Shown: piece after piece, positions 9,082-25,724 of the stretch
Layout of the letters: each line of letters begins with the position of its first letter
Position numbering within the stretch: position 1 is the stretch's first letter
NCBI RefSeq assembly: GCF_016901995.1
Contig: NZ_JACJLE010000011.1
Span: 1 to 64,000 of the forward strand
Direction of reading: 5' to 3'
DNA: 64,000 nt
From: Bacteroides caecigallinarum
GTDB taxonomy: Bacteria > Bacteroidota > Bacteroidia > Bacteroidales > Bacteroidaceae
Position numbers and translations under genes: made by a program
The notes under the pieces: generated by a model
What the model was told of the DNA's origin: nothing
Databases searched by the model: none
The model's input: only the letters and a program-made list of their open reading frames with translations

Positions 9082-10815
9082 TTAGTTTCCTAATTCCAAT
9101 CTACAGAATGAAGCGATAGTACCGTCAGAATTCTTGACTACTATATCATAATGGTCAGTAAGAGTACCGGATATAGACAAGCCATATATATCAACATTAG
9201 ACATTTCGGATTGTATCCATAATGAACCTTGACGCTTATCTTCAGAGCATGTTATACCACTATCGGTTGACAAATTGGACATGGTCTGTCCATCTCCTCT
9301 GCCAACAGCCTCAATAATGATTGGCATGCCGCTAACTAACCCCATTTCATAAATATCTTTTGGTATAACAATTTTCCAAACATTTGATACATCGGCTAAA
9401 TCTGCATATTCTGATTTTATACTTTCAAGTTCAGAGCTTTCAATTTTTACAGACTCAATATTTGATAATCCTACATCACTATAAGACATCAACGTTCCAC
9501 CACCATCTATCGCTCTCGAAATAAAACTGATTTCTTCTTGAGCCACATTTTTCTTAGCTTGAGTAATAGAAGCCATTACGAATGTACTGAATTCTGACTT
9601 CAAATCTCCAGCCGTAAGAGGATTACCCTCACTGTCAACATCTCCTTCACGAATCAACAAATAGTCATTATAGTTTGTTCCATATTCATCGACCAAAGCC
9701 TTTGGCAGAAGCACAACTATCGCCTCCCTTTCTTCTTCGGAATCATTTGCTTTTACTGACAAAGTCACAACACCATCAGTTGTAGGCTGCGTTACTTCCA
9801 CCCAGTTCAGTTCTTGTTCAAAATCATATCTATAAGCAAAACTTTGGTCAATCATTCCACCCTCTCCATCTGAAATATCAGGAAGTTCGTACTTCTCAAC
9901 CAATCCTTTCAAAATTACAAAATCATTAGAGTTCGCAGTAATAGTCGAAGAAACCGACTGTTTCTGACCTTCCTCAGTATTGATTGTTCCATCAGCATCT
10001 ACAGACAATCCATTGTGAGCCGATTGGATAACCAAAGCCCTCTTGTCGAAACCTTCATAAGAAACCGGAATGTCTATTCTTCTTACTTTGTCTGTTTCCG
10101 CTGTTTCAGCGTCAGAGGTATAAAAAGATATTACATCACCTGTGTTTTCTATCGGATATCTGATGTCGTTTTCACTTTCAGTATTGAAAGTAAAGTCATA
10201 GGCTCCAGTTTCCTGATTAATACTCATCGTCAACCATTCCGGATATTGAAGACCTATCTCCATGCCGGCTTCGGCGGAAGCTCTCAACGAAGTAGTTACA
10301 ACATTTGCATTATTGCCTTTTATTTCCAACGGAGTTGAAGAACTGTAAGATATGTCTCCTGCCTCATTCGTAACCACAAGGTTCTGATATTCCCTCATTC
10401 CGCGGGTTATCTTATAAATAACCTGCTCCTGCGATGCCATAGAAAGTGTAATCTGCGCAACGTCTGCTGAAGTATAGTTCCAGCTTGCATCGGAAATCTC
10501 TACTTTCAGAGTCTGGTCGCCGGCCTTTCCCGAAGCTGTCGTTTCTTTGATCTCTCCGTTTACGAACCTGCACCATGCGGCATCGCTCTTCAGGGTCCAG
10601 TCGAGGTTCGCGCTAAATGTTATATCGAGGCTTGCAGAAAATACATTATTTCCATTTTCGTCCGTAGTCTCAGTAAGAGTAACCGTCTGTTCCTTCAAAT
10701 CCGGGAACTGCGGTGTAACAACTTCTTCATCGTCCTTACAGCCTGCTAATACCGCAACAGCGGACAGCGCGAGCATAAGGTAAAACTTTACTGACATTTT
10801 CTTTAAGTTTTTCAT
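9082..10815 (-). CDS. DUF5003/BACON-type surface lipoprotein
   Basis: A lipoprotein of 577 residues if it starts at the ATG at 10815. An in-frame start at 10839 would add eight charged residues ahead of the signal, and the AAAGGAATT stretch just upstream of 10815 favours the shorter form. The lipobox is LAG-Cys. Several Ig-like, BACON-resembling modules follow (LDITFSANLDWTLKSDAAWC near the N-terminus). I recognise the whole as a DUF5003-type protein of SusC/SusD loci. Its 3' two-thirds (about 9082-10340) are visibly more AT-rich than the gene start and its operon neighbours, suggesting replacement by recombination. Confidence 0.78.
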   Translation of the reverse strand: MKNLKKMSVKFYLMLALSAVAVLAGCKDDEEVVTPQFPDLKEQTVTLTETTDENGNNVFSASLDITFSANLDWTLKSDAAWCRFVNGEIKETTASGKAGDQTLKVEISDASWNYTSADVAQITLSMASQEQVIYKITRGMREYQNLVVTNEAGDISYSSSTPLEIKGNNANVVTTSLRASAEAGMEIGLQYPEWLTMSINQETGAYDFTFNTESENDIRYPIENTGDVISFYTSDAETAETDKVRRIDIPVSYEGFDKRALVIQSAHNGLSVDADGTINTEEGQKQSVSSTITANSNDFVILKGLVEKYELPDISDGEGGMIDQSFAYRYDFEQELNWVEVTQPTTDGVVTLSVKANDSEEEREAIVVLLPKALVDEYGTNYNDYLLIREGDVDSEGNPLTAGDLKSEFSTFVMASITQAKKNVAQEEISFISRAIDGGGTLMSYSDVGLSNIESVKIESSELESIKSEYADLADVSNVWKIVIPKDIYEMGLVSGMPIIIEAVGRGDGQTMSNLSTDSGITCSEDKRQGSLWIQSEMSNVDIYGLSISGTLTDHYDIVVKNSDGTIASFCRLELGN

Positions 10816-10879
10816 AATTCCTTTTTTTAAGTCATACAATAATATAATAAAATGTATATGTTTTTTTAATGTTTAATTT

Positions 10880-11118
10880 TATGTACTTTTTCTTTCGCTT
10901 GTCCGAAAGAAAAAGATACCAAAAAGAAAGTACACCGTCTGCGCCCGTCGGGCTACTCCGAAGCCTCTTCCGGCCACTCAAGCTGAAATCCGTCCGGAGT
11001 AGCCCCGGAGCGTCAGCGCTTGACTTTTTTCTTTTGGTATCTTTTCTTTTTGTGTCAAGACAAAAAGAAAAGTACATCCAACGAAAGAAAAAGTACATCC
11101 GACAAAAAGAAAAGTACA
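10880..11118. repeat. Large imperfect inverted repeat with nested hairpins
   Basis: This intergenic block inside the SusC/SusD operon is built of nested inverted repeats. The left hairpin is 10886-10915 (12-bp perfect arms, 6-nt loop) and the right hairpin 11041-11072 (13-bp perfect arms). The A-rich stretch around 10904-10931 is largely complementary to 11021-11050. A GC-rich core pairs GGCTACTCCG (near 10951-10960) with CGGAGTAGCC (near 10994-11003). The right end carries tandem copies of AAAAAGTACAT-type units. It looks like a dispersed Bacteroidales repeat. The open frames across it on both strands are low-complexity and probably not genes. Confidence 0.75.
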
Positions 11119-11122
11119 TACA

Positions 11123-12046
11123 TCAATATCCATCTTCCATCAAGTCCTCCGCCTCGCCGTCGCTTATCCACTCGTAGATGGTAGCGTAAGTACCTACGGT
11201 TCCGTAAAGGCTACCATCCTTGTTGAACACCTGTACGGAGACGTACTGCATGACGAAGTTCTCGCAGGAACTGTAGTAAGACACATATCCCGAAGGCTGG
11301 GTCATCATCAGTTTGCCGTCGCCATAGACGGTATTGAAAGCCTCGCCTGTGGTGCCGCACTGAGTGTCGTCCATCTCTATATATGGTTCGGCCACGTCGT
11401 CCGTCTTGAACTTCAGCTTCACGTCGTATCCCTCATAATAAGGCCCGTGGAGTATCACTGTGTTTTCCTCGTCGGGCGACACCTCCGTCTTTATGAGGCG
11501 GCTCGTCAGCCCCTGAGTGTTGTTAACGGTACTTGAATAGTCAAGAAAATACAGCGATGTGACCAAGCAATATCCCGAAAAGGCGTTTATGTCGAAAGGA
11601 CATACCTTCTGCAATACCACGTTGGCATCCGTCCCGTACAAATCCCACTTGTATTCGTCGGGCACTATAAGGCGCAGCGCGAAGCCGAGCGAGTCCGAAA
11701 TCCCGATATTCTCGTATATACCCTTCACCTCCACGTATCCGGCCATCTCGCCCGCCTTGATGGTGACATTATTGTTAAGCAGGCGGTAATGCTTTCCTTC
11801 CACGGCGTTGCTCTTGCTGTCTATCACCTCAACGGCGAAAGTACGGTCACGGTCTGACTTCACGGTGGCTGACACCGGAACTTTGAACGTCTCGCCGCTT
11901 TCCTGCACGGGATAGTTGTAAATGGTATCGGAAAACATAAGATAATCGGGTCCGCTGTAGGACACCCTCTTCTCGTCGCATCCCGACAGCCCTGCCACGG
12001 CGGCAACGGCCGCCATACATCCAATAAATAAATTCTTCATTACCAT
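11123..12046 (-). CDS. DUF4984/DUF4843-type lipoprotein of a SusC/SusD locus
   Basis: A 307-residue lipoprotein (lipobox LSG-Cys 23; the start may be Met 3). Residues about 30-140 have the DUF4843 pattern (PDYLMFSDTIYNYPV, then VPVSATVKSDRDRTFAVEV and KGIYENIGISDSLGFALRL), an Ig-like domain. Residues about 150-300 match DUF4984. Proteins of this class follow susD in many Bacteroidales loci and are thought to be extra surface binding subunits. Here it is 12 bp from susD. Recalled parallel: the peptide-binding BT2261-2264 complex of B. thetaiotaomicron also has accessory lipoproteins beside its SusC/SusD pair. Confidence 0.82.
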   Translation of the reverse strand: MVMKNLFIGCMAAVAAVAGLSGCDEKRVSYSGPDYLMFSDTIYNYPVQESGETFKVPVSATVKSDRDRTFAVEVIDSKSNAVEGKHYRLLNNNVTIKAGEMAGYVEVKGIYENIGISDSLGFALRLIVPDEYKWDLYGTDANVVLQKVCPFDINAFSGYCLVTSLYFLDYSSTVNNTQGLTSRLIKTEVSPDEENTVILHGPYYEGYDVKLKFKTDDVAEPYIEMDDTQCGTTGEAFNTVYGDGKLMMTQPSGYVSYYSSCENFVMQYVSVQVFNKDGSLYGTVGTYATIYEWISDGEAEDLMEDGY

Positions 12047-22833: not shown

Positions 22834-23952
22834 ATGAATAAAACATTACACAAGATACATCTCTGGCTTTCTATCCCATTAGGGCTGATAATCACTGTGA
22901 TATGTTTCACCGGAGCCACACTTGTATTCGAACAGGATATCACACGTGCCCTAAACAAAAATCTGTATCAGGTGGAAATACCGCAAGGCAAGGAAAGACT
23001 CAGTCCTTCTGAGGTCATAAATATATTACAGGAGAAGCACGATGGAATGAAGATTTCATCAGTAAGGATTCCTAACTCTCCCAAAGAAACTTATCAGATA
23101 AGCTTCAGCAACGGAGGAAAGAAAGTCCTGTTCGTCAATCCTTACACAGGAGAAAGCATAGGATGGTCGAAATCATATCCTTTCTTTCAGACTATGAGGA
23201 AACTCCACAGATGGTTTCTTGATATTCCTAAAAGTAAAGGCAGCATGTCAACCGGTAGACTTATAGTGGGTATTTCTACAATAGCCATGACAATAATCCT
23301 CATAAGCGGACTGGTGATATGGATTCCACGTACCCGTAAGGCTCTGAAAAACAGACTTACAGTGGCGTGCGGCAAAGGTACAAGACGACTGATGTACGAC
23401 TCTCACGTAGCACTCGGTTTCTATGCCACAATATTCCTACTGATTATGGCACTGACCGGACCTACATGGTCGTTCGGATGGTATAGGGAAGCCGTGTCCT
23501 CACTTCTTGGAGCCGAGCCTCAACCACAGAGCCAACAAGCCGGATACGCTCACGGACATGGACATGATGAGAAAAAAGAAAACGGCAAGACAGAACGCCG
23601 ACAGGAAACAAGCATAGCATACGATGCTGCCTTGAAGGAGATACAAAATCTCTATCCCGAATATAACTATATCAAGCTGAGCAAAAATGAAGCCACTGTA
23701 TCATTGAATAAAAACGGATACAGACAGAAATCTGACAACATAAAGTTCAATCCCCAAACCGGCAAAATAACCGAAATCAGAAAATTCGAGGATAACAGTG
23801 TCCGGCAGAACCTCAAAGGATTGATATATTCGCTGCACGTAGGAACATGGGGCGGTCCTGTAACCAAAGTCCTTTACTTCCTGGCAGCACTGATAGGTGC
23901 AACTCTCCCACTTACGGGATATTATCTTTGGCTTAAAAAGAAGATGAGGTAA
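22834..23952 (+). CDS. xusC: PepSY-domain inner-membrane protein, XusC-like reductase
   Basis: A 372-residue protein of the PepSY-associated transmembrane family. It has one TM helix near the start (about 8-32), a periplasmic PepSY-like part (about 45-110), TM helices near 140-165 and 195-220, a His-rich loop (HGHGHDEKKE near 245), a second PepSY-like part (about 260-330) and a final TM helix (about 342-365). Membrane histidines in WFLD/LHRW and SLHVGTWGG could bind haem. Such proteins are thought to reduce ferric siderophore iron in the periplasm. It is the last gene of the iron operon. Confidence 0.83.
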   Translation: MNKTLHKIHLWLSIPLGLIITVICFTGATLVFEQDITRALNKNLYQVEIPQGKERLSPSEVINILQEKHDGMKISSVRIPNSPKETYQISFSNGGKKVLFVNPYTGESIGWSKSYPFFQTMRKLHRWFLDIPKSKGSMSTGRLIVGISTIAMTIILISGLVIWIPRTRKALKNRLTVACGKGTRRLMYDSHVALGFYATIFLLIMALTGPTWSFGWYREAVSSLLGAEPQPQSQQAGYAHGHGHDEKKENGKTERRQETSIAYDAALKEIQNLYPEYNYIKLSKNEATVSLNKNGYRQKSDNIKFNPQTGKITEIRKFEDNSVRQNLKGLIYSLHVGTWGGPVTKVLYFLAALIGATLPLTGYYLWLKKKMR

Positions 23953-24010
23953 CAAAACTCCAGACAACATATCTGAAAGTTCGTAACGGGCTTACATATT
24001 CTGTAAATAG

Positions 24011-24092
24011 AACTTGTGTTTGTATAAACAACAGTGTGGTTTATATAAACACAAGTTCTGTTTTTATAAACCACACTGTTGTTTATAGAAAA
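24011..24092. repeat. Array of four tandem 21-bp palindromic units
   Basis: Cores close to GTTTATATAAAC start at 24018, 24039, 24060 and 24081, exactly 21 bp apart (the fourth is degenerate). The spacers alternate and are complementary: AACTTGT with ACAAGTT, and AACAGTGTG with CACACTGTT. So 24011-24021 pairs with 24047-24057, and 24023-24045 pairs perfectly over 23 bp with 24065-24087, interlocked like a pseudoknot. It lies 60 bp after the xusC-like stop. The rest of 23953-24263 holds only this array and the next operator and promoter. Confidence 0.8.
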
Positions 24093-24174: not shown

Positions 24175-24241
24175 ATAAATTGCCAAATCTTCAAAAATAT
24201 ATGAGATTTGGCAATTTATATGGATTTTTTATACTATATTT
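24175..24241 (+). promoter_or_regulatory. Perfect inverted repeat over the promoter of the ATPase gene
   Basis: A 16-bp perfect inverted repeat (24175-24190 with 24204-24219; core AAATTGCCAAATCT) has a 13-nt spacer. Its right arm contains TTTG at 24207-24210. A -7 box TATATTTGT follows at 24233-24241, about 22 nt downstream, and the ATPase gene starts at 24264. The placement suits an operator over the -33 region. Confidence 0.65.
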
Positions 24242-24263
24242 GTTAAAGTAAAATTCAACAGTT

Positions 24264-25679
24264 ATGATAATTGGACGAAAAGAAGAGCAGAAAACATTAC
24301 TTTCGGCAGCACAGTCGGAGTATTCGGAATTGATAGCAGTCTATGGTCGCAGACGCGTAGGCAAAACATATCTTATTCGTGAAACTTTTGGCTATAAGTT
24401 TACATTCCAGCATACAGGCTTGGCCAATGCCAAAACCAAAGACCAATTGTTCAGTTTTGCTATCTCACTTCGCGATGCAGGTTACGACGATTGTCCTACT
24501 CCGAAATCATGGCTGGAAGCATTCAGTCTGTTATCTCATTTTCTTAAGAACTCAACAGACGAGAAAAAGATAGTATTCCTTGATGAGCTTCCGTGGATGG
24601 ACACCCCCCGTTCGAATTTCATTTCTGCTTTTGAACACTTCTGGAATGGATGGGCTTCAGCCCGCAAGGATATTGTTTTGATTATATGCGGATCTGCCAC
24701 ATCGTGGATTATCAATAAGGTGATTAACGACCACGGAGGACTTCATAATCGTGTGACACAACGTATTGCCCTTCAACCATTTACTCTGAAAGAGTGCGAA
24801 ATGTTCGTCCAAAACAAGGGAATTGAAATGAGCCGGTATCAAATTGCCGAGTGCTATATGGTATTGGGAGGCATACCATTTTATTGGAACTTGCTTGAAA
24901 AAGGACTTAGTCTTGCTCAAAACATCGATAAAATGTTCTTTTCCAGAAATGGGAAATTGACAAATGAGTTTAACCAACTCTATGCTTCTCTGTTTAAATC
25001 GCCTGAACAATATATAGATGTAGTAACAGCTCTCGGCAGAAAAAAGGCAGGTATGACTCGCGAAGAAATTATAACAGCAACAGACAAGCAAAGCAATGGT
25101 GCATTGAGCAAAGTGCTTGACGAGTTGGAATACTGCGGATTTATACGGAAATTCAATGGTTATGGAAAAAAAACAAAAGAGGCAATCTATCAATTGACAG
25201 ACAACTATACGCTCTTTTATTTCAAATTTATCCGGCAAAACACAAACAATGACGAGCACTTCTGGTCGGTTTCTATTGATTCTGCAACGCATAGAGCATG
25301 GAGTGGTTTGGCTTTTGAACGCCTGTGTATGGCTCATACGCAGCAAATCAAGGCAGGATTAGGCATTTCCGGAGTATTAAGCAACATCTACTCATGGCGA
25401 AAGGAAGCAGATGAAAATGGCGAAGGAGCACAAATAGATTTGTTGATAGACCGCAATGACCAGGTAGTGAATATATGCGAAATGAAATACTCCCTGTCAG
25501 AGTTTTCTATCGATGCTGAGTACGAACGTAACCTACGCAACAAAAAGAGCGCATTCATCGAGACCACAAATACGCGCAAGGCTGTACATATTACTATGGT
25601 AACGACATACGGAATCCGTAAGAACTCTCACTCCGGTATAGTGCAAAGCGAAATAACGTTGGAAGATTTGTTTGCATAG
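24264..25679 (+). CDS. ATP-binding protein of the archaeal-ATPase/DUF234 type
   Basis: A 471-residue protein. The N-terminal half is a STAND-like/AAA ATPase with Walker A in GRRRVGKTYLIRE (about 27-39) and Walker B in KIVFLDELPWMD (about 112). A winged-helix part follows (about 255-330, REEIITATDKQSNGALSKVLDELEYCGFI). The C-terminal DUF234-type region has GAQIDLLIDRNDQVVNICEMKYS, which fits a PD-(D/E)XK nuclease core (D...EMK). Such solitary ATPases are numerous in Bacteroidales and archaea; their function is unknown, and defence or mobile-element roles have been suggested. It stands alone with its own operator-like repeat. Confidence 0.85.
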   Translation: MIIGRKEEQKTLLSAAQSEYSELIAVYGRRRVGKTYLIRETFGYKFTFQHTGLANAKTKDQLFSFAISLRDAGYDDCPTPKSWLEAFSLLSHFLKNSTDEKKIVFLDELPWMDTPRSNFISAFEHFWNGWASARKDIVLIICGSATSWIINKVINDHGGLHNRVTQRIALQPFTLKECEMFVQNKGIEMSRYQIAECYMVLGGIPFYWNLLEKGLSLAQNIDKMFFSRNGKLTNEFNQLYASLFKSPEQYIDVVTALGRKKAGMTREEIITATDKQSNGALSKVLDELEYCGFIRKFNGYGKKTKEAIYQLTDNYTLFYFKFIRQNTNNDEHFWSVSIDSATHRAWSGLAFERLCMAHTQQIKAGLGISGVLSNIYSWRKEADENGEGAQIDLLIDRNDQVVNICEMKYSLSEFSIDAEYERNLRNKKSAFIETTNTRKAVHITMVTTYGIRKNSHSGIVQSEITLEDLFA

Positions 25680-25680
25680 C

Positions 25681-25724
25681 GTTTAATCAGCGTTTAAACA
25701 CCATTTAAACAGTATTTAAATACA
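25681..25724. repeat. Four tandem 11-bp repeats with GTTTAAAC cores
   Basis: Starting two bases after the ATPase stop are four units of 11 bp: GTTTAATCAGC, GTTTAAACACC, ATTTAAACAGT and ATTTAAATACA. One unit is about one helical turn. The block lies 75-120 bp upstream of the sigma-54 promoter, where enhancer sites are normally found. Confidence 0.65.

Follow-up and report, generated by a model that had tools for sequence, protein, structure and literature searches.

REP and BIME elements of enterobacteria are short palindromes that lie between genes and are dispersed in lineage-specific sets. Phased operator arrays, with dyads in helical register at promoters, one of them the regulator's own, are known from IHF and Lrp sites, and octameric Lrp-type proteins wrap DNA with four dimers. 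The arrays studied here resemble both. Like REP/BIME sequences they are dispersed extragenic palindromes, but they have a four-module lattice of 21 bp, are placed more often between divergent than between convergent genes and are linked to an HU-type protein. Like phased IHF or Lrp operators they consist of helical-register dyads at promoters, including that of the presumed regulator itself; they differ from these in forming a standard four-site unit that recurs throughout the genome and whose word varies between lineages. By profile score the associated protein belongs to the HU-HIG/HU_rel family (PF18291, TIGR01201). What the present data add for this family are a candidate cognate site, copies of it dispersed over the genome and a proposed self-regulation, none of which we found for it in the open literature. 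Searches of that literature, outside which most subscription journals lie, returned nothing on the array, on a cognate site or on a link to HU-HIG, and no paper defining the HU-HIG family. The parts are of known kinds; their combination looks new. Judging from the sequence comparisons below, we consider it likely, with good confidence, that the array is the operator of a self-regulated DNA-bending protein of HU-HIG type and that its dispersed copies are composite sites of the same protein.

The array lies in a window of 64,000 nucleotides at the start of a Bacteroides caecigallinarum contig. It consists of four 17-bp dyads with a period of 21 bp and runs from a TTCTGT end at about 23999 to an ATAGAA end at about 24090; neither the array nor its modules are assigned a strand. 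The cores GTTTGTATAAAC, GTTTATATAAAC, GTTTTTATAAAC and GTTTATAGAAAA start at 24018, 24039, 24060 and 24081, exactly at the 21-bp spacing given by an earlier, sequence-only reading of this DNA, which had set the start of the array at 24011, too far right and cutting into the first module. The dyad units have the form AAA-N11-TTT, start at 24005, 24026, 24047 and 24068 and are separated by linkers of four bases. Half-sites of type A, AA-N-TT, are found in module 1 (AAATAGAACTTGTGTTT, 24005-24021) and module 3 (AAACACAAGTTCTGTTT, 24047-24063), half-sites of type B, CA-N-TG, in module 2 (AAACAACAGTGTGGTTT, 24026-24042) and module 4 (AAACCACACTGTTGTTT, 24068-24084). Spacers 1 and 3 (24009-24017 and 24051-24059) are reverse-complementary at all 9 bases and so are spacers 2 and 4 (24030-24038 and 24072-24080), as had been claimed. 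Two interlocked pairings had also been described. The perfect pairing of 23 bp around spacers 2 and 4 was found as stated (24023-24045 with 24065-24087), whereas the one around spacers 1 and 3, put at 11 bp, has a perfect run of 13 bp. Both are part of the two inverted repeats that head the list for the window. The exact design GTTTN4AAAC-N9-GTTTN4AAAC had no second site in the genome, and relaxed searches find the family elsewhere there. The 4x21-bp dyad score of the array was 27; shuffling the whole window 60 times with dinucleotides preserved gave at most 22. The model R2, in which the four dyads are modelled as pairs and which was built from 36 arrays with the window array among them, matched 23999-24090 over its full length (1-92) on both strands with an E value of 7e-13.

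Both neighbouring genes are encoded on the plus strand. The left one (22834-23952, 372 aa), by reading of its sequence a PepSY-like membrane protein, has its stop codon 46 bp before the array; the right one (24264-25679, 471 aa) reads as ATPase-like. A TATATTTG box at 24235-24242 may be the promoter of the right gene, judged by the Bacteroidetes promoter consensus. Between the array and this gene, at 24175-24219, a perfect 16-bp inverted repeat with a loop of 13 nt, followed shortly by a T run, is an ordinary terminator candidate.

Another stretch of the window, 692-776, had been likened to the array and thought likely to form one class of elements with it. The likeness in design is real: the stretch contains four imperfect dyads of the type GTTTCC...GGAAAC, with modules 3 and 4 perfectly complementary. 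Its period by reading, however, is 22 bp, it is absent from the R2 matches up to an E value of 10 within the window, and a DNA search of the genome gave no second copy of it. Its membership of the family is thus unsupported. It closely follows a minus-strand frame (787-1290) on that frame's 3' side. A class of elements as such does exist, with four units and a two-turn period, dispersed in this genome and its relatives.

The genome-wide search that had been proposed did find more arrays. In the B. caecigallinarum genome the sequence model R1 located nine arrays in full, a further one truncated where contig C199 ends, and part of another on C90, besides three weaker candidate places on C232, C210 and C236, and a DNA search with the neighbourhood of the array returned more copies both there and in relatives. 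R1 matched in at least 27 of the 61 genomes of the genus and R2 in at least 47 of 301 Bacteroidaceae genomes, spread over 14 of 30 genera; a limited number of candidates was scored per genome for both counts, so that genomes scored as array-negative may still contain some. When named genomes were scanned with a pattern, 18 stretches came up in Phocaeicola, Bacteroides (faecalis, faecichinchillae, bouchesdurhonensis and isolate STD2_73) and an uncultured Bacteroidales. Deeper scans of five genomes yielded 20, 67, 78, 90 and at least 150 rows, which count both strands and correspond to about half as many places; over the six genomes scanned more deeply, dispersed copies number from about 10 to at least about 75 per genome. 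Contigs end inside an array (L146) or within about 200 bp of one (L169, L172, L183, L185 and L194), and draft assemblies may for this reason undercount arrays.

For further analysis 141 arrays were assembled, 81 from a Phocaeicola-dominated set and 60 from further genomes; ten scanned loci (L146-L149, L209 and L211-L215) had no array by the filter used and were left out. The four-module score was 23-30 in the 60 further loci; shuffling one 7-kb locus 20 times gave at most 20. For 138 arrays the flanks were long enough to extend the count: the four modules had on average 6.4 of 8 pairs, the adjoining lattice positions outside 2.0 and those further out 2.3. The standard unit is four modules and the next lattice positions are at background level, although both detectors require four modules and shorter copies are missed by them.

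All arrays have the geometry and the AT-rich linkers in common. The words of the dyads agree within a lineage and differ between lineages: CCACAGTGTGG and TACAACTTGTA in the group of the window genome, CCACGATGCCG in G009, CCCCGACGGCG in G002, CGGCACTGCCG in G128, TATCACTGATA in G140 and CCAAACCTTGG in G168, among others. The two halves of a dyad covary. In 36 diverse arrays 84.8% were paired versus 71.5% in shuffles, and two-sided changes numbered 163 versus 88. Such strong self-complementarity, together with the position of the window copy shortly downstream of a stop codon, might point to an element acting in RNA, where tandem hairpins in the transcript would serve as terminator, attenuator or processing site; the array would indeed be transcribed where a -7 box precedes it. 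Mismatches inside the dyads argue against this. Among 1620 cells, G-T (181) and A-C (171) mismatches were about equally frequent, with no bias per array (chi2 of 74 on 80), and because the two kinds are equal, the dyad symmetry is a property of double-stranded DNA, not of RNA. Nor does the placement fit: among the 130 arrays for which both neighbours were called, convergent gene pairs enclose 19, divergent pairs 46 and co-directional pairs 65 (genes taken by a longest-frame rule instead of a gene caller, with orthologues included in the count). Rfam gave no match at gathering score in the window, and none on the array in ten loci. We consider an RNA-level element very improbable. The earlier remark that an ordinary terminator would not need such a structure was borne out as well, and an intrinsic terminator was rejected on the two criteria scored, wobble mismatches, which show no strand bias, and placement.

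In the Phocaeicola-dominated set, G140 and G128, module 3 repeats module 2 more often in direct than in inverted orientation; G301 and G009 lack this preference. At least some arrays therefore have a polarity.

The complementarity of alternate spacers had been understood as part of the design. Most modules of eight related AT-rich genomes belong to the AA-N-TT, CA-N-TG or AATCT/AGATT type. The window array has the order A-B-A-B, as have its orthologues in G051 and G004, and the orthologues in G012 and G003 show A-A-A and a variant. Over the 81 arrays of the Phocaeicola-dominated set, complementarity between spacers i and i+2 exceeded within-genome permutation with z = 4.0 (3.6 with one array per orthologous cluster, 3.0 without the window locus). 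Direct identity of i and i+2 was raised too (z = 3.3, 2.3 and 2.05 in the same three samplings), and the difference between complementarity and identity was not significant (p = 0.16, 0.06 and 0.12). Both i/i+2 pairs together reached at least 9 of 11 in 5 of the 60 arrays of the eight related genomes, namely at the window locus (L137) and its orthologue L067, at the orthologous loci L142 and L187, and at L164; counting one array per locus, this makes 3 of 32, compared with an expectation of 0.5 (p = 0.006). None of these 60 arrays pairs doubly in a nested or adjacent way. In the other genome sets the i/i+2 excess was absent from five of six, G110 giving z = 1.6-1.7. As a rule for the whole family, alternating complementarity was thus rejected, and what holds of the earlier claim is a weak tendency in the Phocaeicola set. 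The window array is an extreme case of this weak but real tendency, and we take the alternating pattern to be two near-palindromic words taking turns.

The genes next to dispersed arrays are, by reading of their sequences, functionally mixed with no obvious functional group. At one locus, an array stands ahead of a SAM-II riboswitch and a gene that reads as a putative metK, and positions 2280-2347 of L142 match the Rfam family BTncRNA_FopS of paralogous Bacteroidetes small RNAs. With orthologues removed, the promoter boxes lying no more than 150 bp from a dispersed array point away from it in 60 cases (2 of them inside the array itself) and towards it in 19 (6 inside). In G168 (L271-L283), 7 of 13 arrays are followed, 6 bp after their last module, by an outward TAnnTTTG box; this sequence is the -7 promoter element of Bacteroidetes.

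The positions of the arrays are lineage-specific. Between dialect groups no pair of arrays shared both neighbours and 48 pairs shared any neighbour, which would also fit the copying of an element. The arrays might accordingly be a non-autonomous mobile element, MITE- or REP-like, which carries the HU-HIG operator and is spread by transposition or template copying, most copies having no function for the host. Long conserved arms extend beyond the four modules in G128 and G110, and ends with inverted repeats such as TTCTATAAA/TTTATAGAA are found, like the terminal inverted repeats of MITEs. The complementarity of the arms is specific to the copy in G110 (p = 0.013, 0.001 and 0.005 for the first three stretches), weak in G140 and in the first stretch of G128, and absent from the other five sets. 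The copy-specific arms of G110 and the long arms of both G110 and G128 suggest spreading by copying. Against a mere mobile element speaks the behaviour of the arrays in close species: several of these keep them at orthologous loci with changed words and intact geometry, and for this reason the arrays are unlike decaying dead copies. Comparison of the C25 locus of the B. caecigallinarum genome with seven relatives, the one locus studied in detail, revealed neither a clean empty site nor a target duplication; six of the relatives have the same left flank and no convincing array beside it, and the DNA beyond the flank differs. At a second locus compared for empty sites, a full-length match was present in one genome alone and was 100% identical. 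On balance a mobile element is a possible explanation, but one that we rather doubt.

Contig C211 of the B. caecigallinarum genome (L141) and contig C33 of G046 (L409) are 100% identical over 2001 bp, the other compared loci being about 79-90% alike; this may reflect recent transfer or a binning error. A B. finegoldii sequence annotated as a plasmid was dismissed as an array-bearing plasmid, as it carries recA and clpB and looks like a mislabelled piece of chromosome. A link to phages was rejected as well, the four phage matches being only 25-27% identical, and no relative was confirmed among the viral contigs searched.

We return to the reading of the array as the operator of an HU-HIG-type protein. 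Across dialects one neighbour recurs, a protein of about 210 aa of the HU-HIG/HU_rel type. Three such proteins were scanned and scored 65.6-73.8 bits with PF18291 (HU-HIG, cut-off 26.2) and 90.2-99.6 bits with TIGR01201 (HU_rel, cut-off 68.6). The N-terminal part matches solved HU/IHF chains (best E value 5e-5), and from the alignment we read the C-terminal region as helix-turn-helix-like; a single-sequence structure model with a pLDDT of 36 was set aside as too poor. A search with a profile from five array-adjacent neighbours gave protein hits in 119 of the 301 genomes. At 55 loci the 600 bp upstream were scanned for any four dyads at 21 bp, without use of the array models and with p ≤ 0.01 taken as significant. 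Among 38 close homologues (E ≤ 1e-45), 29 had an array upstream, at a distance of 27-159 bp from the gene, once 451 bp, with a median of 86 bp, and none of the 37 testable ones had one downstream. The 38 are made up of the best 30 loci of the protein search, not picked for arrays, of which 22 had one (20 of 28 without the two genomes that seeded the profile), and of 8 loci from genomes chosen for having arrays, of which 7 did; some of the sampled lineages are close relatives. The nine close homologues without an array at p ≤ 0.01 are those of G266, G058, G131, G095, G298, G233, G154, G128 and G009 (p = 0.04 for the last), and the P. massiliensis homologue showed no clear array. Among homologues of an intermediate class, 3 of 7 had an array upstream and one had it downstream (G304, p = 0.007), and 3 of 10 weak paralogues had it upstream. 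Several of the genomes (G048, G331, G290, G201, G278, G150 and G081) had no R2 match, and their words are ones that this model would miss. In Bacteroides finegoldii the array precedes a gene annotated as HU family DNA-binding protein, and in Parabacteroides distasonis, from another family of the order, it precedes a homologue, a case to which the significance test was not applied.

The word before the gene is that of the dispersed arrays. In 12 of 12 genomes it fits those of its own dialect group best, with the genome itself in first place in 8, and when words were assigned to the seven dialect groups in all 5040 ways, the observed word-match sum was reached by the true assignment alone. In G109 and G094, and less cleanly in G226, genomes with two homologues each, a different word stands before each gene. 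The gene and the arrays also occur together: the gene was found in 33 of 47 array-positive and in 86 of 254 array-negative genomes (Fisher p = 4e-6, a test that assumes the same 301 genomes in the array and protein searches), and 14 of the 47 array-positive genomes had no protein match at E ≤ 1e-25. Since the array also sits before the gene of the HU-HIG-type protein, this protein probably reads it. The protein could instead be a hitch-hiker and the arrays be read by another one, for example an octamer of the Lrp/AsnC type, whose wrapping of DNA by four dimers would suit an array of four dyads. However, the same protein family stands beside arrays of many words, with the array on its 5' side and in the word of that genome, and we regard a hitch-hiker as improbable.

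The promoter geometry at the gene agrees with an operator read by the HU-HIG-type protein. Of 34 upstream arrays, 12, belonging to 8 lineages as we group them, have a TAnnTTTG box whose first base lies exactly 24 bp ahead of module 1, where 0.8 arrays would be expected for a box anywhere in about 40 bp; in 10 of the 34 a box occurs between array and gene, against 1.2 expected. These 34 are the 35 arrays at p ≤ 0.01 minus L342 and L371 plus L337 (p = 0.04); L372, whose row in the box scan had a wrong gene position, is not among the -24 matches. Dispersed arrays do not have this geometry, with one box at -24 among 266 array sides. With the -24 box, transcription would begin at the array, which is what an operator for self-repression would call for.

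From these data we infer a mechanism in which one protein dimer would bind each 17-bp dyad, the four dyads being in helical register, with the HU part bending the DNA and the C-terminal part recognizing the word. At the promoter of its own gene, the array would confer self-regulation, most likely repression since it begins about where the transcript should start in many lineages. The dispersed arrays, intergenic and apparently mostly upstream of other promoters, would act through four bent dimers that fold about 90 bp into one complex, which may set or shield local transcription. As the specificity of the protein drifts, the sites would follow, giving each lineage its own half-site word. A bolder extension would see in the arrays a self-propagating, fast-evolving chromatin code, in which arrays spread, four-dimer particles insulate or bookmark promoters, and protein and site co-evolve towards an own word per lineage and sometimes per paralogue; we think this unlikely in its full form. 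If the operator reading is true, a poorly characterized histone-like family of major gut bacteria would have a concrete and predictable DNA target. The arrays would then mark promoters in many species that are possibly under control of an HU-HIG-type protein, and the matched pairs of protein and site would form a natural series in which to follow the evolution of DNA recognition and of nucleoid particles.

The main result against a working system in the B. caecigallinarum genome is a truncated gene on C90 (L147, about 10700-10970), where the first 34 or so codons of an HU-HIG-type gene stand behind a partial array, two modules of which are clear, and then give way to other sequence. No close homologue was found in G013. 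The arrays of both genomes keep their geometry despite the missing intact close homologue, and the partner appears to have been lost recently, to be replaced by another paralogue or to be absent from faulty drafts.

Two further repeats were noticed in the window. Directly 3' of the ATPase-like gene, at 25678-25720, TTTAAAC is part of a four-fold repeat of 11 bp. In the relative G012 (L389) a similar TTTAAAC array adjoins the shared flank at the place where the B. caecigallinarum genome has its 4x21 array on C25, and one type of array may be replacing the other. At 11060-11126, finally, ACAAAAAGAAAAGTACATCCA is repeated in about three copies with a period of 21 bp.
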